From Chroococcidiopsidaceae cyanobacterium CP_BM_ER_R8_30 (GTDB lineage: Bacteria > Cyanobacteriota > Cyanobacteriia > Cyanobacteriales > Chroococcidiopsidaceae): 44,046 bases of DNA. Below the pieces are notes generated by a model. The model was not told where the DNA came from. It did no database searches and worked only from the letters and a program-made list of their open reading frames with translations. The stretch covers positions 1 to 44,046 of the forward strand of contig JAFASY010000197.1 in assembly GCA_019244235.1 (NCBI GenBank), given 5' to 3'. How positions within the stretch are numbered: the stretch's first letter is position 1; each line of letters begins with the position of its first letter. Both the position numbers and the translations under genes were made by a program. This document shows positions 663 to 14,054 of this stretch, one piece after another.

Positions 663-1313
663 ATGACGCTGCAATTGCGTGTTTATGTTCCACCACATCC
701 ATTAATTAAGCACTGGCTAGGCGTTGCTCGTGATGTTGCTACGCCTTCTGTTCTATTTAAGAGCGCGATGACAGAACTGGGGCGCTGGCTGACTTACGAG
801 GCCGTTCGAGACTGGTTGCCAACTGAAGAAGCTACGGTACAAACTCCCCTGGCTCCCTGCCCTGTAACTCTAGTTAATCCACAGGTGCCAATAGCAGTGG
901 TACCGATTCTGCGAGCGGGACTGGCGTTATTAGACGGAGCACAAACGTTGCTACCCTTATCATCAACATATCATCTTGGCTTGGTGCGAGATGAAACTAC
1001 ACTGGAACCAAGTTGCTACCTTAACAAATTACCAGAGCGATTTGCCCCCGAGACGCAGGTTCTGGTGCTAGAGCCCATGCTGGCTACAGGAGGATCGATT
1101 ATGGCTGCAATGGCAGAGTTACAAAAGCGGGGAGTCGATCTGGATTTGACACGAATTATCTCTGTGGTAGCAGCCCCTGTAGCTTTGCAAAGACTGAGTG
1201 CAGCTCATCCTGAATTGGTGATCTACACTGCAACAATTGATGAAGGGTTGAATAACCACGGATATATTGTCCCTGGTTTGGGAGATGCAGGCGATCGCGC
1301 TTTTGGCACTTGA
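663..1313 (+). CDS. upp: Uracil phosphoribosyltransferase
   Basis: Converts uracil and PRPP to UMP in pyrimidine salvage, in the cytoplasm. The PRPP-binding loop reads LEPMLATGGS near residue 140 and the uracil-binding C-terminus ends GLGDAGDRAFGT, both diagnostic of Upp. The 216-residue product has the usual length. I chose the ATG at 663, which gives the N-terminus MTLQLRVYVPPHP; an in-frame TTG at 657 would add two residues. The 5' side is a 120-base spacer after the remnant ORF. The next gene is 68 bases downstream on the same strand. The usual DPMLATGGS has Glu-Pro here, a conservative change. Confidence 0.93.
   Translation: MTLQLRVYVPPHPLIKHWLGVARDVATPSVLFKSAMTELGRWLTYEAVRDWLPTEEATVQTPLAPCPVTLVNPQVPIAVVPILRAGLALLDGAQTLLPLSSTYHLGLVRDETTLEPSCYLNKLPERFAPETQVLVLEPMLATGGSIMAAMAELQKRGVDLDLTRIISVVAAPVALQRLSAAHPELVIYTATIDEGLNNHGYIVPGLGDAGDRAFGT
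1291..1298. repeat. HIP1 palindrome, one of at least 14 in the window
   Basis: GCGATCGC is the highly iterated palindrome of cyanobacteria. I see it also at 4784, 7401, 8164, 11895, 13287, 18656, 19630, 24181, 24362, 25956, 26908, 30016 and 32253. Random sequence of this length would hold about one copy. Most copies are inside genes. Confidence 0.9.
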
Positions 1314-1381
1314 GCTAGTATGCAGCTAGGACAACTAATAGAGAAATTAAAGTTGCAATGTTTCCTGAAGGCGGTAACGAG

Positions 1382-1729
1382 ATGAGTCAACGCAACGGTT
1401 TTGTCACTGGCTTTCTTGCTGGGTCACTTGTAGGAGGCATAGTTGGTGGTGTGATCGGGGCACTAGTTGCTTCTGGGCGGACAAGTGTGACTTTAGCAGG
1501 TGACTCTGAGCCCAGATCAAATGCTAAGCTATCGGACCCTAAGAATAGCAAGGGAAAACGGCGTCAGCTCAAACTTTCCCCAGAGACGAGTATCGAAGTA
1601 GCACGTCGTAGCTTGGAAGATAAAATTGCTCAGCTAAATGAAACAATTGATGAAGTTCGTCTGACTCTGGGTGATGTGAATCGAAATTTACCGGAAGGGA
1701 GTGCTGAGCAGCGCAATGCAGAATCTTAG
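1382..1729 (+). CDS. YtxH-like small membrane protein
   Basis: Conserved small protein of 115 residues. Residues 5-33 form a Gly-rich hydrophobic segment (GFLAGSLVGGIVGGVIGALVA), typical of the YtxH/gas-vesicle-like family, followed by a basic linker and a C-terminal heptad-like coiled coil. I chose the ATG at 1382, where the membrane segment follows directly; an upstream ATG at 1358 adds eight residues. It lies between upp and the yggT homologue on the same strand. Members of the family are linked to stress responses in other bacteria, but nothing in the sequence gives a specific role. Confidence 0.75.
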   Translation: MSQRNGFVTGFLAGSLVGGIVGGVIGALVASGRTSVTLAGDSEPRSNAKLSDPKNSKGKRRQLKLSPETSIEVARRSLEDKIAQLNETIDEVRLTLGDVNRNLPEGSAEQRNAES

Positions 1730-1855
1730 GAGGTATGGTGCGAATGGTAACAGCCGCTACACTTCGATAGTAATGATGATCGAAAATCACTAATATTGGT
1801 TAGACTAGATTCAGCAAACGCCACAAATTGAATTAAGCAGGGAACCTTTACTTCC

Positions 1856-2143
1856 ATGAGTAACTCAGTCGCACTACTAGTCCATACACTGGTTACTTTC
1901 CTAACCATTTATTTCTACCTGATCATAGTTCGGGTGCTTTTAAGCTGGTTCCCGAATGTTAACTGGTATGCTCAGCCGTTTTCGATCTTGAGCCAGTTGA
2001 CAGATCCATATTTAAATCTGTTTCGCTCCATCATTCCACCCTTGGGCGGTATTGACATCTCCCCTATCTTGGCGATTCTCCTACTGCAATTTGCAGGTGG
2101 GATTCTGACTAGCCTCGTAGGAGGGGCCGGATTGGCATTCTAG
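1856..2143 (+). CDS. YggT/Ycf19 family membrane protein
   Basis: A 95-residue integral membrane protein of the YggT family, called Ycf19 in plastids. It has two hydrophobic segments (about residues 5-30 and 65-90) separated by the family signature: RVLLSWFPN, then LTDPYLNLFRSIIPPLGGIDISPI. Plastid and cyanobacterial relatives have been linked to thylakoid membrane organisation and nucleoid distribution; that is family knowledge and is not shown here. The gene faces a convergent gene whose stop lies 13 bases away. The start is the first ATG and gives the normal length. Confidence 0.9.
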   Translation: MSNSVALLVHTLVTFLTIYFYLIIVRVLLSWFPNVNWYAQPFSILSQLTDPYLNLFRSIIPPLGGIDISPILAILLLQFAGGILTSLVGGAGLAF

Positions 2144-2156
2144 GGGGTCAAAAGCT

Positions 2157-2588
2157 TCATCTGCGGACCGTACCGCTAAAACCAGCTGCCTTAAATTGCT
2201 TTAACTTCAGGGGCGTAGGTTGGTTCGCTGGGACTGAGATACGTAGGGAAAAATCGCTGATGCCTGGCGGAACTTCTTCTATTGATCCAAGACGAGTGCG
2301 GTTTTGCATGACTGAGTCGTTGTTGGCATCATAAATGCGCCCAAAAATGTCGGCGTTGTAGACTGGCTTGCCAGATGTGTTTTCGGCTTTACCAGTAACG
2401 ATGAAACAGTTAGCGCTCATGGTAGTCCCACTCGTGACAGCGCCTTGAGAGAGTTCCTCTGAACACTCGTGATAAGAAATATCAGACAGCTTAATCTGAG
2501 TTAGTGCTAGAGCGGGGGGAGCAGGTACCCAGGCAATCAAACCAATGAGGCAGATCATTAAGAATGTAGCGAAGGCTCGAAACCGCAT
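2157..2588 (-). CDS. Exported or lumenal conserved protein, FxLYD-like
   Basis: A 143-residue protein that starts with a signal peptide: basic MRFR, a hydrophobic core to about residue 22, and AxA-type cleavage near PPALALT. The mature part is predicted to be a beta-sandwich, with a GKAENTSGKPVYNADIFGRIYDAN segment like the FxLYD/DUF3426 fold of secreted domains. Two cysteines (in YHECSE and ANCFIV) could form a disulfide in an oxidising compartment. It probably acts in the periplasm or thylakoid lumen. No enzyme motif is visible and no symbol is justified. It converges with the YggT gene. Confidence 0.7.
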   Translation of the reverse strand: MRFRAFATFLMICLIGLIAWVPAPPALALTQIKLSDISYHECSEELSQGAVTSGTTMSANCFIVTGKAENTSGKPVYNADIFGRIYDANNDSVMQNRTRLGSIEEVPPGISDFSLRISVPANQPTPLKLKQFKAAGFSGTVRR

Positions 2589-2709
2589 AAGGGACCAAGA
2601 ATCAATAGAGCTAACCTCAGCTTACCCGAAATTTAGGAGATAAAGGTCTAGGAAGCTGCTCAAAAATTTTTGTCATAATTAGGAAATCAAGCCTCGACTG
2701 CTATTTGCT

Positions 2710-3342
2710 ATGAACCCAGATGAGATCGAAGTGGCACTGCAATCAGCCTTTGACCGCTGTGACACAGCTAGCTGCCCTCTCACTGAGCAACAGAAACAGA
2801 TATTGCTGCAAGCGGTAGAGGAGCTAATGTACCAGCTACCTGACTTGCCAGCTATTGAAGCTGTAGAATCAGATACGGCTAATCCCCTGGATGAACTGAC
2901 TCCTGACCAACGGCAATGCTTTTTGCAGTTTGTCAAAGCTCAGGAGCAACAGAATCGTCCCTGGAAAGTTAAATTGCTTGACGATTGGCTGCAAGAACGT
3001 GCCTCTGGTTCAGTACAGTTCATCCGCGACCGCTACGGTCCCCAGTGGCTAAATCGGCTAAAGCCAGGTCATTTTGCCAAGTATGCAGGTGAGGGAGAAG
3101 AAGTCCTAAAGCTAAAAGTGGGCGATCACATCGAAGTCTCGAATAGTCTGTGGGAATGGGTGCAGGAAAATGGTCCCTGTAGCCGCGAATGGTTTGCTTG
3201 TACTGTAATTCGGGTTGAAGAAACTGGCGAGGGTACTAATGCTGCCATTGATTGCATCATCCGCTTTAATAACGGTGCTGAATACGAGATTCAAAGTATG
3301 TACGGTTGGAATCGCTACAACTGGCGCTGGCCTCAACCGTGA
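2710..3342 (+). CDS. Conserved cyanobacterial protein of unknown function
   Basis: A 210-residue soluble protein with no signal peptide or membrane segment. The N-terminal 70 residues are acidic and helical; residues 95-130 contain LDDWLQERASGSVQFIRDRYGP. The C-terminal 80 residues look like a small beta-barrel (LKVGDHIEVSNSLWEWV, then CIIRFNNGAEYEIQSMYGWNRYNW) reminiscent of SH3-like or KOW-like folds. The Trp/Tyr-rich ending is striking. I recognise it only as a conserved hypothetical type. It stands alone between a divergent gene and a 127-base spacer. Confidence 0.75.
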   Translation: MNPDEIEVALQSAFDRCDTASCPLTEQQKQILLQAVEELMYQLPDLPAIEAVESDTANPLDELTPDQRQCFLQFVKAQEQQNRPWKVKLLDDWLQERASGSVQFIRDRYGPQWLNRLKPGHFAKYAGEGEEVLKLKVGDHIEVSNSLWEWVQENGPCSREWFACTVIRVEETGEGTNAAIDCIIRFNNGAEYEIQSMYGWNRYNWRWPQP

Positions 3343-3469
3343 ATGATGGTAAATTGGAGATGTGTTGCAAAACCTTACAATTCTAGAATTAAATTAAGAA
3401 ATGTTGCATTTGTTTGCTACAGTTGCTAGCTTATGCGTAGCAGACAAAATCATGAGAGTTTTTACTTAA

Positions 3470-4096
3470 GTGAGCAACATAAATACAGAGAACTGTAAAG
3501 ACCAACTGTCAGGCTCAGGAGCAACAAGTCATCAATTGCCCTTGAGCAATACAACGGCCCCTGTACCCGATCACCTGAGTCAAAATATCTCAGCTATCAA
3601 AGCTCTGCACGAGCGCGCCGAGCAGGATGTGAGTCAACATCAGCGAGTTGTGGAGACGGTGACAGCTTTCTTAGGGCGTCCAGCGTTCCTCTACAGCATA
3701 CTGCTTGCGATCTCCCTCTGGATTTTGCCTAATCTCTTACCTCGCCGATTCGGTGTCCCCCATTTTGACCCACCTCCATTTGACTGGTTGGAGCGAACCA
3801 TCACTCTTAGTTCATTATTGGTAACAACCGGGGTTTTAATTAAACAAAGCCGACAAGAGAAGCTAGCAGAGCGACGGGCACATCTGAGCCTACAGATGAA
3901 CCTGCTAGCCGAGCAAAAAACTGCTAAGCTCATTGCCTTGGTCGAGGAACTGCGCGACGATCTTCCTGGTGTGAGAAACCGACACGATCCTGAAGCTGAG
4001 GTGATGAAGCAGTCTGCTGACCCCCATGCAGTGATGAAGGCGTTGGAAGAGGCACTTATAGAAGAACTGGAAGCACTGCAAAAGCAGAATCGCTAG
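3470..4096 (+). CDS. DUF1003 family membrane protein
   Basis: A 208-residue protein with the DUF1003 layout: a polar N-terminus, the signature AEQDVSQHQRVVETVTAFLG around residues 50-70, two close membrane helices (about 74-92 and 108-125), then a long basic/acidic helix (KQSRQEKLAERRAHLSLQMN) and a cytosolic coiled tail. The start is GTG at 3470; no better in-frame ATG exists. Its stop overlaps the convergent aroE stop within the palindrome CTAG at 4093-4096. No function is established for the family; small-molecule transport or membrane scaffolding are only guesses. Confidence 0.82.
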   Translation: MSNINTENCKDQLSGSGATSHQLPLSNTTAPVPDHLSQNISAIKALHERAEQDVSQHQRVVETVTAFLGRPAFLYSILLAISLWILPNLLPRRFGVPHFDPPPFDWLERTITLSSLLVTTGVLIKQSRQEKLAERRAHLSLQMNLLAEQKTAKLIALVEELRDDLPGVRNRHDPEAEVMKQSADPHAVMKALEEALIEELEALQKQNR

Positions 4097-4947
4097 GCTT
4101 CCAGGGATTGACGCATCACATCTACTGGTATCGGCTGTTGTAACCAGATTTCTAAAGCAGCTGCCCCCTGGTAAACTAGCATTTCTAGTCCGTCAAGAGT
4201 AGCAAGTTGTAGTTGCTGAGCCTGACGCAGCAACTGGGTGGGGCGAGGATTATAAATCAGGTCGTAGACAATGGCATTCGGTGGTAGTTGTGCCATCGTA
4301 GCTGCACTCAAGGGCGATTCCTCAACTTTGGGGTACATGCCAGTTGGAGTTGTGTTGACCAGGAGAGTGGCTTGGGGAATTAGTCGTGGCAGTTGCTCCA
4401 AGGTGTGGACTTGCAGATTGTTTAAGTTTGAATTGACCCAACTCGCTTTGAACTCTTCTAACTTCGTCTGGTTTCGACCCGTAACGTGGATCTTGGCACA
4501 GCCTAACTCTGCACAGCCAAATGCTACTGCCCTAGCGGCACCACCATTACCTAAAATTACGGCTACAGTTTGGCTCCAATCTCGGTTATACCTAATTTGC
4601 AAAGGGGCGAGAAACCCTGCAACATCAGTGTTCGTTCCGCTCCAGCCCTTATCTGTACGCCACACGGTGTTAACAGCACCTACAGCTTGAGCAACTGGTA
4701 GAACTTCCGACAAGAAATTCAGTATTGTCTGTTTATGAGGAATTGTGACATTGAAACCAACCAGCCCGATAGCAGCAAATCCGGCGATCGCTGCTGGTAA
4801 ATTTTCTGGTGTTACTGGTAGGGGCAGATAGACATAATCTAATCTTAAAGCGGCGATGGCGGCATTGTGCATGACTGGTGACAATGAGTGTTCAACCGGA
4901 TGCCCAATCACACCTAGCAGTTTTGTTTTGCCCCCAATCACTGGCAT
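4093..4947 (-). CDS. aroE: Shikimate dehydrogenase
   Basis: Reduces 3-dehydroshikimate to shikimate with NADPH in the aromatic amino acid pathway. The substrate site is seen in GHPVEHSLSPVMHNAA (residues 15-30) and FNVTIPHK (about 64-71, containing the catalytic Lys). The NADP-binding Rossmann loop is GNGGAARAV near residue 134, and the NTTPTGMYP and LEMLVYQGAAALEIW motifs follow. The 284-residue length is normal. The gene converges with the DUF1003 gene, both using CTAG for their stops. The hydrolase gene on the other strand starts 60 bases from its start codon, so the spacer holds two divergent promoters. Confidence 0.95.
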   Translation of the reverse strand: MPVIGGKTKLLGVIGHPVEHSLSPVMHNAAIAALRLDYVYLPLPVTPENLPAAIAGFAAIGLVGFNVTIPHKQTILNFLSEVLPVAQAVGAVNTVWRTDKGWSGTNTDVAGFLAPLQIRYNRDWSQTVAVILGNGGAARAVAFGCAELGCAKIHVTGRNQTKLEEFKASWVNSNLNNLQVHTLEQLPRLIPQATLLVNTTPTGMYPKVEESPLSAATMAQLPPNAIVYDLIYNPRPTQLLRQAQQLQLATLDGLEMLVYQGAAALEIWLQQPIPVDVMRQSLEA

Positions 4948-5006
4948 ACCTCTAAAGACAGGTTCAAGCTACTCATCTTCTTTGCTTTTATATTCAGTAA
5001 AAACAT

Positions 5007-5984
5007 ATGCAGCCTAGTATAAAGTCACATAGTAATGGGTATACAGCTCCTATTCCCGGCACTTTTTGGCAGTGGCGCGGGCAATCTATTTACTACGTTC
5101 GGGCAGGAGAACCATCGTCTGAGCGTCCTCCACTGCTGTTGGTACATGGATTCGGTGCTTCTACAGATCACTGGCGCAAAAATATCGCCCAACTACAAAA
5201 TGATTTTGAAGTTTGGGCAATTGATCTTTTGGGGTTTGGACGCTCAGCCAAACCTAACTGGCAGTATAGCGGCGAGCTTTGGCGAGACCAGCTCTATGAA
5301 TTCATCATTAGCGTCATTGGTCAGCCAGCTGTGTTAGCAGGTAATTCCCTAGGGGGCTATGCTTGCTTGTGTGTTGCTGCCCAGCGTGCTGACGTAGTAG
5401 CAGGCTTGGTGTTACTCAACAGTGCTGGTCCTTTCTCCGATGCCCAGCCTTCCCCCGAACCTGATTCACTGCAAACCGAAGTTCAGCCCTCACAGCAGCC
5501 CAATCCTTTGCAAAAACTACTGGGGAACGTTGTGCAATGGATTCTACAACAGTCTTGGGCACGGTTCCTGCTATTTCAATACGTGCGACAACGGTGGGTG
5601 ATTCGACAAACCCTAGAAAAAGTCTATCTCGATCAAAGTGCTGTTACAGACCAGTTGGTGGAAGAAATCTATCGCCCCTCTTGCGATGTGGGTGCAGCAG
5701 AAGTTTTTGCTTCTGTATTCAGTACTCCCCAAGGTGAAAAGGTTGATATGCTGCTTAAGCAGTTAACTTGCCCTCTATTATTACTTTGGGGAGAAGCCGA
5801 TCCCTGGATGAATGCCAGGGAGCGATCACCAAAGTTTCGTCAATTCTATCCTGAACTGACAGAATACTTCCTCAAAGCGGGCCATTGCCCTCATGATGAA
5901 GTACCAGAACAAGTGAATGAAGTAATGTGCTCTTGGGTACTATCTATCGATAAAACCAGCACTGGATGCACTCACCCATCCTAA
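5007..5984 (+). CDS. Alpha/beta hydrolase with a Uma2-matching 3' end
   Basis: A 325-residue alpha/beta hydrolase of the epoxide-hydrolase/pheophytinase-like type common in cyanobacteria. The oxyanion motif is HGFGAS at 47-52, the nucleophile elbow GNSLGG puts Ser at 114, the acid is Asp265 in WGEADPW, and the base is His293 in AGHCPHDE, so the triad looks intact. A Pro/Gln-rich insert lies at residues 145-166 in the lid region. The substrate cannot be read from sequence. The last 11 codons and the stop come from a 41-base stretch (5949-5989) that matches the Uma2 gene at 13812-13852, so the natural C-terminus was probably shorter or different. Confidence 0.88.
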   Translation: MQPSIKSHSNGYTAPIPGTFWQWRGQSIYYVRAGEPSSERPPLLLVHGFGASTDHWRKNIAQLQNDFEVWAIDLLGFGRSAKPNWQYSGELWRDQLYEFIISVIGQPAVLAGNSLGGYACLCVAAQRADVVAGLVLLNSAGPFSDAQPSPEPDSLQTEVQPSQQPNPLQKLLGNVVQWILQQSWARFLLFQYVRQRWVIRQTLEKVYLDQSAVTDQLVEEIYRPSCDVGAAEVFASVFSTPQGEKVDMLLKQLTCPLLLLWGEADPWMNARERSPKFRQFYPELTEYFLKAGHCPHDEVPEQVNEVMCSWVLSIDKTSTGCTHPS

Positions 5985-5989
5985 CCTTC
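5949..5989. repeat. 41-base copy matching the Uma2 gene (38/41)
   Basis: Bases 5949-5989 match 13812-13852 at 38 of 41 positions, on the same strand. In the second location this is the antisense of a Uma2 gene. Here it encodes the last 11 residues and stop of the alpha/beta hydrolase. Read in the Uma2 frame on the minus strand, this copy would give LGWVSASSAGFI against LGRVSASSAGFI, so two of the three differences fall in one codon (Arg to Trp) and the third is silent. Confidence 0.8.
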
Positions 5990-6027
5990 AATTATGAGGA
6001 TATTACGAACTGGTGTCCCGCGTTAAG

Positions 6028-8235
6028 CTAATGGTGCTTGCCAACGCAACGGGAATTTAGGGGAAACTGCTGACACAAAATCTGCTGGCCTTCTGGTGAA
6101 AGCTGAATCGGTGGAAGTGTAATCCTTTGAGACTGAGGTGTCGATTGAGCCCGAACCAGTGGTGTTGGTCCCTGCGGGACTGGCGGTTTTGGTTGAGCCC
6201 TAACTAGTGGTATTGGTCGCTGCGGGACTGGCGATGGAATGGGTTGTAATGAAGGATGTTGGGGTGCAGGAAGTTCTGGCTGGAGAGCATTGTTAATTCC
6301 GCTTTCTCGAATTTTACTAGCTGCTATATACTTTTGGGCCATCTGAATAATTGGCCTGATCTGATGCTGCCAGTAGGGAGTATCTTGCTTTACCCCCTGT
6401 CCAAGTAGTCTAACCTTATTAGTTTTATCTATCGCTTCCTGCCACTTACCTTGCTTAAGCGCATCTTGAGCTGCCTGCAAATAATTTTGATTATTGTTCC
6501 ACTCTGTTCGCCATCTTTCGCGCATTTTCTTAACACTTATGGCAAGAGAGCTAGTTTTAGGAATAGCTTTAGTTAGAGCGATTGCATTTTGTAGGTCTTT
6601 GGAGTTGTACGATTGTTTGTATCGTTCCTGGGCTTGTTTAATCAGGCTTAGAGACGACTGACTGATGAGCTGTTGAGCTTGCTCCTGAAAAGTGCTACCT
6701 GGGTGAATCTTACTGGCATCAGCTATCGCATCCTTAAAATTGTTCTTTTTTGCCAACTCTTTGGCTTGAGCTAGCCTTTTCTCATCTTGAGCAAGGCGCT
6801 GACAGTCATTGAGTAAATTTTGAGCATTGGCATAGAAACCTGATTGTGATTGAACTACTCTGGCTTCATTCGCACACATTTCATAGTTTTTGTCTTTGTT
6901 GAACTCTTTAGCACTTTCCAATGCTGTCTTCACAGATTGGTTATCTTGCCCTCTCATGTGAGAAAAATAGGCTAAACCCCCACCTACGAGAGCGACAGCA
7001 GCGGCTATTGATTGAAACAACAGTCGTCGTACTTTTTTCTGATCCTCTCCTCGTTCACTAATTGGTAGGGTTGGCTTGAAATTATTTTGTTCAGTTTTCA
7101 GCCCAAGTGAGCCGGTAGATTTCTTTGTTTGTCCTACGCTTTGCTGCAACTGTTGTAACTGTTGGTGAGTGTTTTGATTGAGCTTGTGCTCTTCGAGCCA
7201 AGGAGTTGTTTCCGGCAGAACCTTGAGCGGCTTCTGCTGAGCATTAGCTGTGCTGCTAGCCCCACCACTTTCAATAGAAACAGCAGCAAGCATTGCCTGC
7301 TTCAACTCAACTACCGATGCAAAGCGTTCAGCAGGTGCCTTTTGCAAACACCGCATGACTACCGCCTCCAATTCCGAAGACAGCTGCGACAAGCCTGGTT
7401 GCGATCGCAGTGGTACAAGTGGCTTTGATGTATGAGCTAAGAGCCATGACATTCTATTAACTGGCGCATCGTTTATCTTAAAACCCAGACCAAACGGGTC
7501 GGTACCGCTCAGCATTTCGTAGATGATGATGCCCAAACTATAAATGTCGGCTCGCCCATCCAGGTCTTTTTCAACTTTTAACTGCTCGGGTGCAGCATAG
7601 TGAAATGTACCCAACGACATACTTGTTAGGTTATTATGTTCAACTTGGGTTTCACGGATTTTTGCCATGCCAAAGCCCAGAATCTTCACCAGCTCTCCCA
7701 TCGCTGTGGGGACTAGGAAGATATTGTCCGGTTTTAGGTCACGATGAACTACCTTGACTTGCTCACTGGCTGTAGCATTGTCTCGCCACAGGGTCACTCC
7801 TTCATGCGCTAGTTGCAGACCGTCACATACTTGGGCAATGATGCTCACTGTCTGTTCTACCGACAGTCGCTGCTTCTGCAATAGCAGCTGTCCTAGACTC
7901 TGTCCGCGCAAATACTCCATCACGAAGAATGGATACCCCTCATCTGTTACTCCATAGTCGCTGACTTCAACAACGATGTGCTCACTTTTGAGGGTGGCGC
8001 ACAGTGCCACCTCGCGTTCAAAACGCTTTCTCCGCTCCTCTGATGCTACAAATTGGTCTTTAAGCAGTTTTAAAGTCACCTGCTGACCCAGCAGGGTATC
8101 CATGGCGACGAAGACATCCTCCATGCCTTCCACTGCTAAGCGCTTATCTAGACGGTAACGTTGGCGATCGCCAAGCAATCGACCTATCCAGGGATCTGGC
8201 TGAGAAGGGGCTTTACTTAGCGAACGGTCATTCAT
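6028..8235 (-). CDS. Membrane-anchored Ser/Thr kinase homologue, probable pseudokinase
   Basis: A 735-residue protein: Hanks-type kinase domain at about 25-320, basic/Gln-rich linker, one membrane helix at about 406-424, then a helical TPR-like region (430-640) and a Pro-rich tail. The catalytic loop HRDLKPDN (164-171), the ATP lysine in VTLKLLK (Lys56) and the APE motif (215-217) are present. However, the Gly-rich loop reads AVEGMED (34-40), with Ala, Glu and Glu where this family usually has Gly, and the magnesium-binding DFG is GFG (187-189). This argues for weak or no catalysis. The C-terminal part probably faces the periplasm. The gene is divergent from the HisKA/ParA-SulP pair across 840 bases. 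Confidence 0.9.
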   Translation of the reverse strand: MNDRSLSKAPSQPDPWIGRLLGDRQRYRLDKRLAVEGMEDVFVAMDTLLGQQVTLKLLKDQFVASEERRKRFEREVALCATLKSEHIVVEVSDYGVTDEGYPFFVMEYLRGQSLGQLLLQKQRLSVEQTVSIIAQVCDGLQLAHEGVTLWRDNATASEQVKVVHRDLKPDNIFLVPTAMGELVKILGFGMAKIRETQVEHNNLTSMSLGTFHYAAPEQLKVEKDLDGRADIYSLGIIIYEMLSGTDPFGLGFKINDAPVNRMSWLLAHTSKPLVPLRSQPGLSQLSSELEAVVMRCLQKAPAERFASVVELKQAMLAAVSIESGGASSTANAQQKPLKVLPETTPWLEEHKLNQNTHQQLQQLQQSVGQTKKSTGSLGLKTEQNNFKPTLPISERGEDQKKVRRLLFQSIAAAVALVGGGLAYFSHMRGQDNQSVKTALESAKEFNKDKNYEMCANEARVVQSQSGFYANAQNLLNDCQRLAQDEKRLAQAKELAKKNNFKDAIADASKIHPGSTFQEQAQQLISQSSLSLIKQAQERYKQSYNSKDLQNAIALTKAIPKTSSLAISVKKMRERWRTEWNNNQNYLQAAQDALKQGKWQEAIDKTNKVRLLGQGVKQDTPYWQHQIRPIIQMAQKYIAASKIRESGINNALQPELPAPQHPSLQPIPSPVPQRPIPLVRAQPKPPVPQGPTPLVRAQSTPQSQRITLPPIQLSPEGQQILCQQFPLNSRCVGKHH
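6136..6231 (-). repeat. Tandem 48-base repeat in the kinase Pro-rich tail
   Basis: Residues 669-684 and 685-700 of the kinase homologue are two copies of a 16-residue unit: PVPQRPIPLVRAQPKP and PVPQGPTPLVRAQSTP. The DNA is a direct 48-base duplication. It lies in the Pro-rich tail beyond the membrane helix and probably changes length between strains by slippage. Confidence 0.75.
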
Positions 8236-9075: not shown

Positions 9076-11235
9076 ATGCGACAGAACAACCAAGTGCAGC
9101 AAACCCTACTGGTATATCTGCGCCACGAACTCTGTACACCCATCAATGCCATGATTGGTTACAGCGAAATGCTTCTGGAAGAGCTGCAGACTCAGCAAGA
9201 GTCAACCCTGTTTGGGGATCTGCAAAAGATTCACGTCTCTGGAACACAACTGTTGACGCTGGTAACCGCTATCCTGGACCCGATGCAACTGGAAATGAGC
9301 CAGCCTGAAGGCGATCTCAGTAGCTTGGGCTCTACGCTGCGAATGGAACTGCTCGCTCCATTGAGCACTATCATTGGCTACTGCGAGATGTTGTTAAAGG
9401 AAGCTCCTGCTGAACTTATCCCCAACCTGGATAAGCTAAACACCGCAGCCCAACAGTTGCTGAGCCTAGTTAACGACATTATCAATCTGGCTTGGCAGTT
9501 GCAGACTTTAAATTCACATGAGGCGGCATGTCAAATCCCTCAACTCTTACTAGAAAGCCCAGCAACTGCCACCACACTTCAGACTCTCAAGGCTTCGCCG
9601 GAGGTAGCTCCGTCGACTTCCTTGAGCAAGCTCAAAGACAGGTCTTTTGAAAAGCCAGCTCAGGGCAGCATGATTTTGGTGGTAGATGACAACTCAGCTG
9701 ATTGGGACTTGCTCTCTCGACAATTAAAACGGCAAGGCTATACGATAACGATCGCCACCAACGCGCCACAAGCCCTGAGCCTGCTGCAAGCTATACCCTA
9801 TGACCTGATTCTGCTAGATGTGATTCTGCCCGGAGCGAATGGCATTGAATTGCTAGAGCAGCTCAAGCGCCATGACAACTGGCAACACATTCCGGTAATC
9901 ATGATCTCAGCTCTAGATGAGATTGATGGTGCCGTCAAGTGTATTGAAATGGGAGCAGATGACTATTTGCATCAGCCCTTTGATCCAATATTACTTAAGG
10001 CCAAGATAGGGGCTTGTTTGGAGAAGAAGCGACTCAGAGACCAGGAGATTCTCTACCGGCAACAAGTGGAACGCCTGACCGCAGCAGCAGCAGCGGTAGA
10101 AACAAACACCTTCAACCCCGACAGTCTAGCCGATCTGGTCCAACAGCCTAACGAGCTGGGGCAACTAGCCCGCGTCTTCCAACACATGGCTACTGAGGTC
10201 AATTCCCGCGAACAGCACCTGGCACAACAGGTGCACCTATTGCAGGTGGCTATTGACGAAGGTCAAAAAAAGCGACTGGTTAACGAGATTGCCGAAACTG
10301 ACCATTTTCGACAGCTCCAGAAACGATCTCAGGGTAGCACAGACATCGAGAATCCGTATCGCTCTTCCCTGTCTGCTCCTCAAGCTCCGTCTCAGGTTGT
10401 TAAGAGGATAGAGAAGCCAGCTTTAGACCCTGATTCTCCGAACGTTAGCACCCCTAAAATTGTGGCTATCCACTCCTATCAAGGAGGGACAGGCAAGTCA
10501 AATCTTATCAGTAACCTGGCTATCAGTGTCGCGAAGCAGGGTCATCGGGTGGGGATTATTGATACAGACTTGCAATCTCCTGGGATTCATATTCTATTTG
10601 GCTTGGATGATAAGACGACGGAGCGAACCCTGAACGATTATCTCTGGGGTCGTTGTGTTCTCTATGAAGCTGCCCACGATCTGAGCCACATCTTGCAACA
10701 GCCTACTGGAAGTTCTGATGGCGCTATTTATCTGATTCCGGCAAGTGCCAAAGCTTACGACATTACGCGCATTCTGCGCGAAGGATACCACGAAGAACTC
10801 CTGCTCGACGGTTTCGCCGAGATTATCCACGATCTGCAACTGGACTTTTTGTTGATTGATACCCATCCTGGCATTAATGAAGAGACACTGCAGGCAATCG
10901 CGGCTGCCAATCTGTTGGTCATGGTGCTGCGTCCAGACTACCAGGACTACCAGGGTACCGCTGTGATTGTTGAGCTGGCACGCATGTTGTCAGTCTCAAA
11001 GATGTTGCTCGTGGTCAATAAGGCACTACCCACCTTTGATAACAGGACGTATCGACAACAGTTAGAGGAAACCTACGATGTTCCGGTTGCGGAAATCCTA
11101 CCCTTCACTGAGGAAATGTTGTATCTGGGAAGTCGCGAAATCTTCTCAATTCGCTACCCTAGTCATCCGCTGACAAAGGCAGTAGATGCCATGGCTCAGC
11201 ACATAATTGATGCAGAGGTGACCTCATGTCCTTAA
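9076..11235 (+). CDS. HisKA-receiver-ParA/MinD-like ATPase fusion protein
   Basis: A 719-residue soluble signalling protein. Residues 10-70 are a HisKA-like phosphoacceptor helix pair with H-box LRHELCTPINAMIGYSEML (His17). Residues 85-145 repeat it, but with Met90 in place of His. No HATPase_c domain follows. Residues 199-315 are a receiver domain (Asp204, Asp205, phosphoacceptor Asp248, Ser278), but the usual KPF is QPF (Gln300). A coiled region (315-420) leads to a ParA/MinD-type ATPase at 461-700: QGGTGKSN (469-476), DTDLQ, and Walker B FLLIDTHPG (Asp595). The deviant Walker A signature Lys is Gln469. The gene overlaps the SulP gene by 10 bases. No clear Shine-Dalgarno precedes the ATG. 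Confidence 0.88.
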   Translation: MRQNNQVQQTLLVYLRHELCTPINAMIGYSEMLLEELQTQQESTLFGDLQKIHVSGTQLLTLVTAILDPMQLEMSQPEGDLSSLGSTLRMELLAPLSTIIGYCEMLLKEAPAELIPNLDKLNTAAQQLLSLVNDIINLAWQLQTLNSHEAACQIPQLLLESPATATTLQTLKASPEVAPSTSLSKLKDRSFEKPAQGSMILVVDDNSADWDLLSRQLKRQGYTITIATNAPQALSLLQAIPYDLILLDVILPGANGIELLEQLKRHDNWQHIPVIMISALDEIDGAVKCIEMGADDYLHQPFDPILLKAKIGACLEKKRLRDQEILYRQQVERLTAAAAAVETNTFNPDSLADLVQQPNELGQLARVFQHMATEVNSREQHLAQQVHLLQVAIDEGQKKRLVNEIAETDHFRQLQKRSQGSTDIENPYRSSLSAPQAPSQVVKRIEKPALDPDSPNVSTPKIVAIHSYQGGTGKSNLISNLAISVAKQGHRVGIIDTDLQSPGIHILFGLDDKTTERTLNDYLWGRCVLYEAAHDLSHILQQPTGSSDGAIYLIPASAKAYDITRILREGYHEELLLDGFAEIIHDLQLDFLLIDTHPGINEETLQAIAAANLLVMVLRPDYQDYQGTAVIVELARMLSVSKMLLVVNKALPTFDNRTYRQQLEETYDVPVAEILPFTEEMLYLGSREIFSIRYPSHPLTKAVDAMAQHIIDAEVTSCP
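11215..11225 (+). promoter_or_regulatory. Ribosome binding site of the SulP gene
   Basis: GAGGTGACCTC directly precedes the SulP ATG at 11226 and lies inside the upstream coding sequence. The GAGGTG core is well placed. This supports the start and translational coupling across the 10-base overlap. Confidence 0.6.
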
Positions 11236-13451
11236 TCACCCCCATCCTAGAAACAATTCACCTGCAAAAGCTCCAGCCACCCAAATTGCTGCCCAATCTG
11301 TTGGCTGGCATCGCCGTGGGACTGGTTTCCCTCACCTACAGTATCTCCTTTGCCGCGCTGCTCTTTTCGGGAAACCTATCTCCTTACTTCCCGCAAGGAG
11401 TTGGCAGCGCTCTGGTTAGCTCGGCGATTGCTGGCACTTTTGTGGCATTGCGTAGCTCCTTTCCTTTTGCCATCGCTGGTCCTGACTCTAATGCCGCTGC
11501 CATTCTAGCTATGATGGTCAGCGCCATTACCCAAGAGATACGCAGCTCAAGTCGAGTTGAACAACTCTTTCCAACAGTGTGGATGGGGATCGCCTGCAGC
11601 ACCCTATTAGCTGGTCTGTTGTTATACGCTATGGGACGCCTGCGTCTGGGACGCTGGGCACGGTTTATTCCCTACCCCGTGATGGGTGGATTCCTGGCGG
11701 GAACAGGCTGGGAGATTACCCGTAACTCCTTCAAAGTCATGGTGGGGTTGCCCTTGGGGTGGGATGAATTGCCACATCTTTTCCAGTTTCCTACCCTGAT
11801 TCACTGGCTACCAGGGATGCTGTTTGCCGGGGGGCTGATAGCTATGACACAATACTATCCCCATCCCTTGGTGTTACCAACTCTGCTATTGGGAGCGATC
11901 GCAGGCTTCAATCTCCTCTGGCATCTGCTCCAAGTTTTCGTGCCGTTGACCCCACAAGGATGGTTCCTCGAACGGTTCTCCAGCAATCAGCTCTGGCACT
12001 CCTGGAACGCCAAGAGCATCATGCAAGTCGATTGGCAAGTCTTGGCAAATCAGAGTGGGGCACTGATAGTGCTGATGGTCGTCGTTGTCATTATCATCTT
12101 ACTCAATAGTACTGGTCTGGAACTGGTAACCGAGCAGGAGAGCACTCTCGACAGCGAACTTTGCACTAATGGCATCGCCAACTTAGTGGTGGCTCTCTAC
12201 GGTGGGATGGTGGGTTATCTCTCCTTCAACAGAACTTTGCTACTTCGCAGTGCTGGCGCCAACAGTCGTTTAGCAGGTGTGACGGCGGCAGTCTTTTGTG
12301 GAGCTATGCTATTGCTTAACCCAGCGGTTATGGCTTATATCCCCCGATGGGTCTTGGGCGGTGTGCTGCTGATGATTGGGGGTAAGCTGCTGCTCGAATG
12401 GGGCATTTACGCCTGGTTCAAGTTTCCCCACCTAGATTATGCTCTGATTGCGCTCATTCTGGTGAGCATTGCGCTTAGGGGCTTTGTCACTGGTGTGGGG
12501 ATTGGTGTGATTATCGCTTGCGCCTTATTTATCTTTAGCTATAGTCGTCATCAGGTGATTCGACATCAGTTTTCGGGGGCGACTTACCCCAGTCATGTTT
12601 GCCGTTCGTTTCCAGAGCAACGCCTGCTACGACAGCAGGGAGACCAAATCCAGGTCTTGCTTTTGCAAGGCTACCTCTTCTTTGGCACGGCGAATACGTT
12701 GCTCGAACAAGTCTGTCAACGACTACGAGATCCGGCGCTGCCCTTAATCCGGTTTGTGGTTTTGGATTTCCGTTTGGTAAGCGGACTAGATTCCTCAGCG
12801 GTACTCAGCTTTATTAAGCTGCGGCAGCTGGTGCAAAAGCAGGAGGTGCGATTGGTGTTGACGCATCTTGCCCCGGTAATCTGGCAACAACTGCAGCAAG
12901 GAGGCTGCATCCTGACGCAGAATAACTCGCTCCAAGTTTGTGCAGATTTGGAGCGAGGCATTGAATGGTGTGAAGACCAAATTCTCGCAACCATGCCCCT
13001 ACGTCGTCGTCGGGCTCTGCCACTCGCCCTCCAGTTGCACGAGTTCTTCGAAGGAGTCGAGCAAGTTTCTAGCTTTATGGGCTATTTGCAAAAGACTCAA
13101 GTGCCCGTTGGTCATACCTTGTTTCGCCAGGGTGAGTTGTCTGACACGCTCTACTTGATTGAGTCAGGGCAAGTGACAGTCTTGCTCCAACTTAGTGATG
13201 GACAAACCCGACGACTGCGCACCTTAGGGGCAGGCATGAGCCTGGGTGAAAATTCATTCTATCTCGGCACGCCCCACAAAACTTCAGCGATCGCCGATCA
13301 ACCCAGCACACTTTACTGCTTATCCCAAACCAACTTGCAAATCATGCGCCAGGAAGCTCCTCAAGTCACTGCTGCCTTTGGAGACTTTATCATTCGCTTG
13401 CTGGCCGAGCGCCTAATTTATGCCTACGAGGAAATTGAAGAGCTGCTTTAA
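11226..13451 (+). CDS. SulP anion transporter with STAS and cyclic-nucleotide-binding domains
   Basis: A 741-residue SLC26/SulP-type transporter. Residues 20-440 hold the membrane core (about 12 segments) with SulP-like LPNLLAGIAVGLVSLTYSISF and the substrate-region GPDSNAAAI. A STAS domain follows at about 470-580 (VVLDFRLVSGLDSSAV, Ser523-524), then a cyclic-nucleotide-binding-like domain at about 620-735 (GHTLFRQGELSDTLYLIESG, then LGENSFYLGTPHKTSAIA). In that pocket the usual Arg is Lys, so ligand binding is uncertain. The anion cannot be assigned; sulfate, bicarbonate or another anion are possible. It is translationally coupled to the HisKA/receiver/ParA protein, which suggests regulation by it. 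Confidence 0.9.
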   Translation: MSLITPILETIHLQKLQPPKLLPNLLAGIAVGLVSLTYSISFAALLFSGNLSPYFPQGVGSALVSSAIAGTFVALRSSFPFAIAGPDSNAAAILAMMVSAITQEIRSSSRVEQLFPTVWMGIACSTLLAGLLLYAMGRLRLGRWARFIPYPVMGGFLAGTGWEITRNSFKVMVGLPLGWDELPHLFQFPTLIHWLPGMLFAGGLIAMTQYYPHPLVLPTLLLGAIAGFNLLWHLLQVFVPLTPQGWFLERFSSNQLWHSWNAKSIMQVDWQVLANQSGALIVLMVVVVIIILLNSTGLELVTEQESTLDSELCTNGIANLVVALYGGMVGYLSFNRTLLLRSAGANSRLAGVTAAVFCGAMLLLNPAVMAYIPRWVLGGVLLMIGGKLLLEWGIYAWFKFPHLDYALIALILVSIALRGFVTGVGIGVIIACALFIFSYSRHQVIRHQFSGATYPSHVCRSFPEQRLLRQQGDQIQVLLLQGYLFFGTANTLLEQVCQRLRDPALPLIRFVVLDFRLVSGLDSSAVLSFIKLRQLVQKQEVRLVLTHLAPVIWQQLQQGGCILTQNNSLQVCADLERGIEWCEDQILATMPLRRRRALPLALQLHEFFEGVEQVSSFMGYLQKTQVPVGHTLFRQGELSDTLYLIESGQVTVLLQLSDGQTRRLRTLGAGMSLGENSFYLGTPHKTSAIADQPSTLYCLSQTNLQIMRQEAPQVTAAFGDFIIRLLAERLIYAYEEIEELL

Positions 13452-13466
13452 ATGAACAACTAAGGC

Positions 13467-14054
13467 TCATTCGAACTCAGGTGCCCACACCTCTGCTATT
13501 GCCAGTTCCCAGCCGGGAAGCAGTTCAGGAACCGTTAAGACATCCCCATTTCCCAGGACAGCTTTCTCTGCTCTCGGACGGTAAACTTCCACAGTTCGAG
13601 TTCTGGGATCAACTAAGACACCCACCTGAGTCCCTAGCTCTAGAAAACTTTGAAGCTTCTGGCGGAGTTTTTCTAGCGAGTCACTTTTAGACTTAACCTC
13701 AAACACTAGATCGGGCACAAGCTGGGCATAGTTCTCGGTTGTCCGTCGTAACCGCTCTGCGCGGATAAACGATGCATCTGGGGCGCGCACATCTTTATCT
13801 ACGTTAGGTAAGATAAAACCAGCACTGGATGCACTTACTCGTCCTAACCTTCGGGGACGAACCCAATTGCCGAGCTGTCGAATGATCTCTGCTGCAACTT
13901 CATCCGATTCCAAGCCAGAGGGACTCATGATAATAATTTCTCCACCCACCAACTCCATGCGATAGTCAGGGAGCTGTGATTGTAGCCTTTCTAGGTCTTT
14001 GACAGTGAGGGACATAAACTCTGTTGAGACACCTATTTTCGGTGCTACAACCAT
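13467..14054 (-). CDS. Uma2 family PD-(D/E)XK endonuclease-like protein
   Basis: A 195-residue member of the Uma2/DUF820 family, which is greatly expanded in cyanobacteria. It has the N-terminal helix-strand motif YRMELVGGEIIIMSPSG, then RAPDASFIRAERL and PDLVFEVKSKSD, giving the Asp and Glu-X-Lys catalytic residues of a restriction-like fold. The C-terminus VGVLVDPRTRTVEVYRP is typical. Family members are assumed nucleases of unclear role, often seen with mobile DNA. Codons around residue 68-81 match the 3' end of the alpha/beta hydrolase gene. The gene ends 15 bases from the convergent SulP stop. Confidence 0.9.
   Translation of the reverse strand: MVVAPKIGVSTEFMSLTVKDLERLQSQLPDYRMELVGGEIIIMSPSGLESDEVAAEIIRQLGNWVRPRRLGRVSASSAGFILPNVDKDVRAPDASFIRAERLRRTTENYAQLVPDLVFEVKSKSDSLEKLRQKLQSFLELGTQVGVLVDPRTRTVEVYRPRAEKAVLGNGDVLTVPELLPGWELAIAEVWAPEFE
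13812..13852. repeat. Uma2 segment shared with the hydrolase 3' end
   Basis: The second copy of the 41-base repeat at 5949-5989 (38/41 identical). Here it is part of an intact Uma2 reading frame (minus strand), so this copy represents the ancestral coding context. Confidence 0.8.

Follow-up and report, generated by a model that had tools for sequence, protein, structure and literature searches.

The window (the whole stretch of 44,046 nucleotides analyzed here) carries two adjacent genes, here called A and B, on its forward strand. Both open reading frames are intact and begin with ATG, they share a 10-base overlap, and a Shine-Dalgarno-like GAGGTG lies within gene A five bases ahead of the second ATG (Table 1). 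An earlier note on this DNA had described the gene pair, its overlap, an internal ribosome site, and the domain content of the two products, all of which we find: Pfam detects HisKA, receiver, and ParA/MinD domains in A and SulP, STAS, and cNMP domains in B. The neighbors of the pair, a Ser/Thr kinase gene upstream and a Uma2 gene downstream, are both encoded on the opposite strand; the kinase (positions 6028 to 8235) has a long Pro/Gln-rich C terminus.

Table 1. Features of the A-B locus (positions refer to the window)
Feature	Residues	Positions	Strand	Remarks
DUF3365 sensor kinase relic	33 residues	8966-9064	+	Directly upstream of A; from between the two receivers of the kinase
Gene A	719 aa	9076-11235	+	ATG start; HisKA, degenerate HisKA, receiver, HAMP-like coil, tail, ParA/MinD ATPase
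HisKA domain 1 of A	9-72	9100-9291	+	
HisKA-like domain 2 of A	About 76-150	9301-9525	+	
Receiver of A	200-311	9673-10008	+	Pfam Response_reg, E 3.7e-26
HAMP-like stretch of A	331-375	10066-10200	+	Pfam HAMP, E 1.1e-4, under cut-off
Tail of A	382-423	10219-10344	+	Tail profile, 57.8 bits
ParA/MinD-type ATPase of A	461-719	10456-11232	+	
Shine-Dalgarno-like GAGGTG		11215-11220	+	Within gene A, ahead of B start
A/B overlap	10 bases	11226-11235	+	ATGTCCTTAA
Gene B	741 aa	11226-13451	+	ATG start; SulP-STAS-cNMP
SulP membrane domain of B	23-393	11292-12404	+	Pfam Sulfate_transp, E 4.9e-36
Exchange-boundary region of B	391-421	12396-12488	+	Identity to L001 climbs from ~0.3 to ~0.8
STAS of B	473-560	12642-12905	+	Pfam STAS, E 7.9e-11
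cNMP-binding-fold domain of B	625-705	13098-13340	+	Pfam cNMP_binding, E 9.2e-16

Besides that of the window, five full-length A genes occur in a set of 80 loci retained from 260 relatives: in Phormidium tenue (L001), an Oscillatoriales MAG (L002), a Chamaesiphon MAG (L003), Stenomitos frigidus (L004), and cyanobacterium RU_5_0 (L011). Pfam places HisKA in two stretches of A (E 8.9e-17): the phosphoacceptor of the first, His17, is present in all six full-length proteins, and the second has no such histidine (Met90 in the window; Met, Leu, Val, or Trp across the six). The receiver retains its acceptor, Asp248, but its conserved lysine, kept in the five relatives, is Gln300 in the window. A HAMP-like stretch and a further element, which we term the tail (TDHFRQLQ within it begins at residue 408), separate the receiver from the ATPase, a feature beyond those in the earlier note. 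The ATPase itself (Pfam AAA_31/ParA/CbiA within residues 461 to 681, best E 5.9e-16) has its Walker lysine at position 474 and a glutamine, Gln469, at the signature lysine position, where the family has arginine. Because Pfam finds no HATPase_c domain in A, which thus lacks the HisKA-HATPase_c combination of histidine kinases, gene A may encode a phosphate acceptor that would have no kinase activity of its own.

Gene B combines the Sulfate_transp and STAS domains that define SulP (SLC26) proteins; these are shared with BicA, DauA, and SULTR4;1, from which B differs by its extra cNMP-fold domain. It remains below the equivalog cut-offs of both BicA (68.9 bits versus 880) and DauA (111.3 bits versus 614), and its STAS domain has a DSS motif with Ser523 and Ser524. 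In cyclic-nucleotide-binding domains, the phosphate-binding arginine lies in a PRxA motif; its expected place in B is taken by His684, and histidine stands there in L001 and L011 as well. Among 12 other SulP-STAS-cNMP proteins, three (L124, L132, and L134) retain the arginine. This substitution makes ordinary cyclic-nucleotide binding by B doubtful, and the domain may serve as a protein-protein module.

The ATPase of A represents a separate family within the ParA/MinD type. ParA/MinD proteins are marked by a deviant Walker A motif with a signature lysine, KGGxGK[ST]. Among 108 open reading frames with a ParA match, 102 carry [FY]RGGTGK, in which arginine replaces this lysine; YQGGTGK is confined to 4, all representing the window gene (three of them re-fetched duplicates), and the last 2, which do not match the pattern, are diverged tandem copies in L033 and L052, each beside a typical ParA. 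The fold and the P-loop (Walker A GGTGKS) are those of MinD, FlhG (FleN), and ParA/Soj: Pfam assigns AAA_31/ParA/CbiA, Foldseek matches 1hyq with a TM score of 0.87 by target length, and MinD (1hyq), FleN, and FlhG are closest in both fold and sequence. No NCBIfam model reaches its cut-off among the 25 of 132 matches listed, in which NF047398 attains 81 of 90 bits and minD_arch 75.7 of 201.75. Standalone relatives, mostly 250 to 300 aa long and about 46 to 60% identical to the ATPase domain of A, come from Cyanobacteria, Chloroflexota, Rubrobacter, a Thermoleophilia MAG, and a Planctomycetia MAG; the corresponding domain of L001 is 76% identical. Tandem ATPase pairs are encoded in the Chloroflexota genomes G463, G472, G499, G507, G531, and G539, with the second copy far more diverged (about 237 to 264 bits versus 419 to 430).

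Inspection of the genes neighboring RGGTGK ATPases revealed that otherwise unlike proteins share the same segment of ~46 residues (consensus LxxQxxxLxIEIDxxKxxRQVAEIxESDYFQxLQxxAxxxR). This tail is of mixed charge, is C-terminal or internal, and occurs on c-heme Cache, dCache, CHASE2, PAS, cNMP (L135), receiver, and HisKA proteins, as well as on kinases (CHASE2 plus Ser/Thr kinase in L175; a cyclase domain plus Ser/Thr kinase in L163), with several copies of its core in some CHASE2 proteins (L028, L155, and L156). The Pfam stretches of the tail proteins scanned end before the tail, the one exception being Hac8_like_N in L020, far under its cut-off, and no chemoreceptor signaling domain is listed for any of them. 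A tail scoring above 30 bits is found in 74 of 1,028 genes of the loci (genes of at least 100 aa, outside the short or re-fetched pieces L081 to L122, L143 to L150, and L157; the model included a few misplaced rows), and gene B is not among these hits. Of these tails, 67 are fused to an ATPase or at most two genes away from one, a count that is biased because most of the loci were fetched with a tail-containing query. The upstream same-strand neighbor of the ATPase is most commonly a tail-bearing DUF3365-HAMP protein (32 of 92 ATPase genes), other such neighbors being dCache and CHASE2 proteins.

AlphaFold models the tail of A as a helix, at low confidence: in one monomer model its second half, with the DxF core, has a pLDDT of about 54 and 38, and in the other the entire tail lies between 35 and 52. 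Docking of the tail on the ATPase is visible in neither model, which neither backs nor excludes docking in cis, and a monomer cannot reveal a site at a dimer interface.

The strongest association between the two elements comes from a genome census, in which an ATPase profile (E ≤ 1e-50) and a tail profile (E ≤ 1e-4; two of 34 alignment rows, being receiver sequence, were removed) were applied to the same genomes at one threshold each. In Cyanobacteria, the phylum of the window, the ATPase is present in 23 of 146 genomes and the tail in the identical 23; in Chloroflexota, the phylum of the Anaerolineae MAG that contains L077 (G420), both are present in the same 22 of 151. Not one genome of either set has only the ATPase or only the tail. 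The probability of such agreement by chance would be about 1e-26 per set if genomes were independent and kinship were ignored; since they are not independent, we take the absence of exceptions, rather than a P value, as the evidence. For 46 of the 81 tails, an ATPase is encoded at a distance of at most 10 kb, whereas 11 of the 45 genomes (7 Cyanobacteria and 4 Chloroflexota) have only unlinked tails, each either on a different contig from the ATPase or beyond 10 kb from it. As these include genomes assembled into 1 to 7 contigs each (G058, G090, G131, G135, and G161), linkage combined with contig breaks is insufficient to explain the co-occurrence. Copy numbers of tail and ATPase are correlated (rho = 0.70, P = 0.0002 in Cyanobacteria; rho = 0.47, P = 0.026 in Chloroflexota), and the correlation of their scores is weak or absent (rho = 0.40, P = 0.058; rho = -0.12, P = 0.58). 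In the genomes examined, then, tail and ATPase are strictly coupled at the genome level.

When two proteins that are separate elsewhere occur fused, this is classically taken to indicate interaction. At L005, L006, and L007, the ATPase has a gene of its own, directly after one for a HisKA-receiver-tail protein; in A, these two parts form a single chain. In the ATPase tree (a quick tree with many weak branches), the six A sequences form one clade (support, 98), whose sister is the split pair of L006 (95). By sequence, A is thus best described as a fusion of a client (HisKA-receiver-tail) with the ATPase, related to the split pair of its relatives.

The surroundings of A in the relatives indicate a larger operon. 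Its full order, present in L001 and L011, is a DUF3365-HAMP hybrid kinase with two receivers, A, SulP, and a multidomain receiver protein (receiver-HisKA-HisKA-receiver-PAS-receiver); L004 has the same order without SulP, and its last protein is without PAS. The stretch available for L003 begins at A and that for L002 ends shortly after the next gene, with no SulP after A in either. The downstream receiver protein also bears a tail in L001, L003, and L011 (that of L004 scores just 18.7 bits). With respect to what the full operon might sense, the available text of PMC12889525 ascribes nitric-oxide-sensor properties to DUF3365 domains fused to signaling modules, which makes NO or redox state a candidate input.

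Directly before A, the window retains a remnant of the operon kinase. The relic is 50 to 67% identical to all four operon kinases tested, in its best match to each (35.4 to 43.9 bits, versus 24.6 bits for the best of 200 shuffles); it is closest to the kinase of L002 (67%), and its match in L004 is part of a longer gapped match. The window locus thus derives from the full operon, whose kinase it has lost. The receiver gene after B is likewise missing at this locus, where B is followed by the Uma2 gene from position 13467. The glutamines in the receiver (for Lys) and in the ATPase (for Arg) are each unique to the window among the six full-length A proteins. Elsewhere in the source genome, a DUF3365-HAMP gene on another contig (C299) is 60% identical to the front part of the operon kinase and ends shortly past HAMP, and a second ATPase (C211) lies about 2.3 kb from a tail-bearing Ser/Thr kinase. 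Judging from the two changed switch residues, the kinase relic, and the missing receiver protein, the window copy is probably partly uncoupled.

The pairing of A with B is rare, and SulP is an occasional partner of the ATPase family of A. The earlier note had looked to repeated occurrence of the pair across species; the pair is common to the window, L001, and L011, all cyanobacteria, but SulP adjoins A at just these three of the six full-length A loci (not at L002, L003, or L004), such that the two genes are seldom adjacent in related genomes. Of the 80 ParA-family loci, 2 contain a full SulP gene, and no ParA occurs in the stretches around the 12 other SulP-STAS-cNMP genes from genomes of the phylum. 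Across 386 genomes of the phylum, 12 contain SulP-STAS-cNMP genes, at 13 places in total (the window included), and 9 have a match to the front half of A (E ≤ 1e-50). Nor is the overlap of A and B conserved (a 13-base overlap in L011, a 22-base gap in L001), so that the fixed stoichiometry that had been read from it is not supported. What survives of the earlier interpretation is a real pair for which, in line with that note, we found no description in open-licence papers; the same holds for the tail and for the RGGTGK ATPase family.

A more general role of transporters as cargo of the ATPase was also considered and is not supported: genes with at least seven predicted membrane segments are not enriched near ParA (11 of 187 versus 18 of 344 genes, P = 0.84, by a simple hydropathy count outside loci L081 to L122 and L143 to L157). 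At seven loci (L041, L042, L063, L035, L005, L006, and L008), a large membrane protein that appears APC-like by eye is encoded near the ATPase; the one scanned (L041, positions 3279 to 5918) matches no Pfam family.

The two halves of the SulP protein have different histories. The STAS and cNMP domains of L001 and L011 are 66 to 79% identical to those of the window (79% for STAS and 78% for cNMP in L001), and the STAS-cNMP parts of these three form one clade (support, 100/99) among 15 proteins. By comparison, the membrane domain of L001 is only 36 to 40% identical to that of the window and lacks a close relative among matches from 244 genomes (best, 40%), and a grouping of window, L001, and L011 is rejected for this domain (p-AU = 8.8e-6), in a test chosen after the difference in identity had been noticed. 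Since the cytoplasmic parts form one clade and the membrane parts do not, the membrane half was exchanged in one operon and the STAS-cNMP half retained. The exchange thereby shows that the part of the transporter conserved in the operon is STAS-cNMP, and its staying with A fits regulation via the cytoplasmic domains.

We favor, at a probability of roughly 0.55, the interpretation that A is the one-chain form of a two-part signaling system composed of an RGGTGK ATPase and a docking tail borne by its clients. The tail would dock on the ATPase, probably on the ATP-bound dimer, in the manner of MinE or ParB peptides, and would couple the signaling state of the client to the ATPase cycle, such that clients (membrane sensors, kinases, receivers, and others) gate the ATPase. 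In full operons, the upstream c-heme sensor kinase would phosphorylate both the receiver of A and the downstream receiver protein, and phosphorylation of A would alter the contact between tail and ATPase. Where SulP is present, its STAS-cNMP half might read the result of the system, the membrane half being swappable; the system may affect transport.

A different role for the tail would be that of an output coil whose target is not the ATPase but another factor inherited with it, such as a third shared protein. Many tails do come after a HAMP domain or coiled coil, and docking is seen in neither AlphaFold model, yet in L163, L175, L034, and L169 the tail comes after a Ser/Thr kinase, CHASE2, or PAS domain that has no HAMP immediately ahead of it. 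Together with the exact agreement, in both sets, between the genomes with the tail and those with the ATPase, and with the union of the two parts in the single chain of A, this leads us to regard such a coil as rather unlikely. The prospects are similarly poor for the proposal that the operon is decaying in the window and that what is left of it there has no present function: this would account for the kinase relic, the missing receiver gene, both glutamine substitutions, and the location of the nearest DUF3365-HAMP gene, which ends shortly past HAMP, on another contig, but the frames of A and B are intact, identity to L001 remains at 76 to 79% in the ATPase, STAS, and cNMP domains, and the genome retains a second ATPase and a second tail.

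Quite unlikely, in our estimation, is a dedicated system in which A positions or gates SulP at the membrane, which is close to what the earlier note had envisaged. The adjacency of A and B in three loci, the persistence of the STAS-cNMP half beside A despite the change of membrane half, and the APC-like proteins at seven loci all speak for such a system. Against these stand the absence of SulP from half of the A loci and from all but 2 of the 80 ParA-family loci, the absence of the ATPase around all 12 other SulP-STAS-cNMP genes, and the lack of enrichment of polytopic genes near the ATPase in general.

Several known systems resemble parts of this arrangement. CpaE/TadZ proteins consist of a receiver fused to a ParA-type ATPase, and A shares with them a receiver N-terminal to the ATPase, but it additionally has HisKA helices, a HAMP-like coil, a tail, and a deviating Walker A motif. 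Peptide partners of ParA/MinD-type ATPases include MinE, ParB, McdB, and ParP/TlpT, and the tail, as a short element on the partner that is a likely docking site, would be comparable to them. According to the available text of PMC10241942, the cargo partners of ParA/MinD proteins present a positively charged, disordered N-terminal peptide, whereas the tail is internal or C-terminal, helical, of mixed charge, and distributed over many classes of signaling proteins; a helical tail on signaling proteins would be a new variant of the known scheme. ParC and PpfA, which act on chemoreceptor clusters (same source, as far as available), are likewise ParA/MinD ATPases with signal transduction clients, but the proposed clients of the RGGTGK ATPase are sensors, kinases, and receivers, with no chemoreceptor domain listed. 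The domain that, with HAMP, heads the operon kinase is that of the DUF3365/Tll0287 c-heme Cache sensors (PMC12889525); tail and ATPase are additions here, the words ParA and MinD being absent from the available text of that source. Within the ParA/MinD type as a whole, the arginine in place of the signature lysine sets the RGGTGK family apart.

Many ParA/MinD ATPases have no known cargo or partner, and through exact co-occurrence in two genome sets, one such family gains a concrete candidate partner element that can be read from sequence. If the tail docks, clients of the ATPase can be recognized by it in any genome, and ParA/MinD biology, centered on chromosomes, organelles, and chemoreceptors, comes to include signal transduction in general. 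On a broader and more tentative level, at somewhat less than even odds, these elements could constitute an undescribed signaling hub of Cyanobacteria, Chloroflexota, and some Actinomycetota and Planctomycetota, in which one RGGTGK ATPase gathers or paces unlike signaling proteins (heme, Cache, CHASE2, and PAS sensors, Ser/Thr kinases, a cyclase-kinase, and phosphorelay receivers) via one transferable docking tail and, in A-type operons, also operates a transporter with an exchangeable membrane-domain cassette.

Some loci place the tail or the ATPase in unusual company. In L163 (positions 2861 to 5413), a cyclase-like domain, a Ser/Thr kinase, and the tail are joined in a single protein. L172 (positions 885 to 4657) is a partner-switching cluster carrying the tail, with SpoIIE-receiver, CheB-receiver, DUF6272, STAS/SiaC-like, and small HAMP-tail proteins encoded in a row, and the order in L173 is similar. 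In L020 (positions 2634 to 7690), a dCache-HAMP-tail sensor bears a fused Nif11 peptide domain and is followed by the ATPase, a DUF7005 protein, and a double cNMP protein; the Nostoc loci L032 and L047 resemble it, and in loci of this type the ATPase perhaps resides inside a peptide-export gene cluster.
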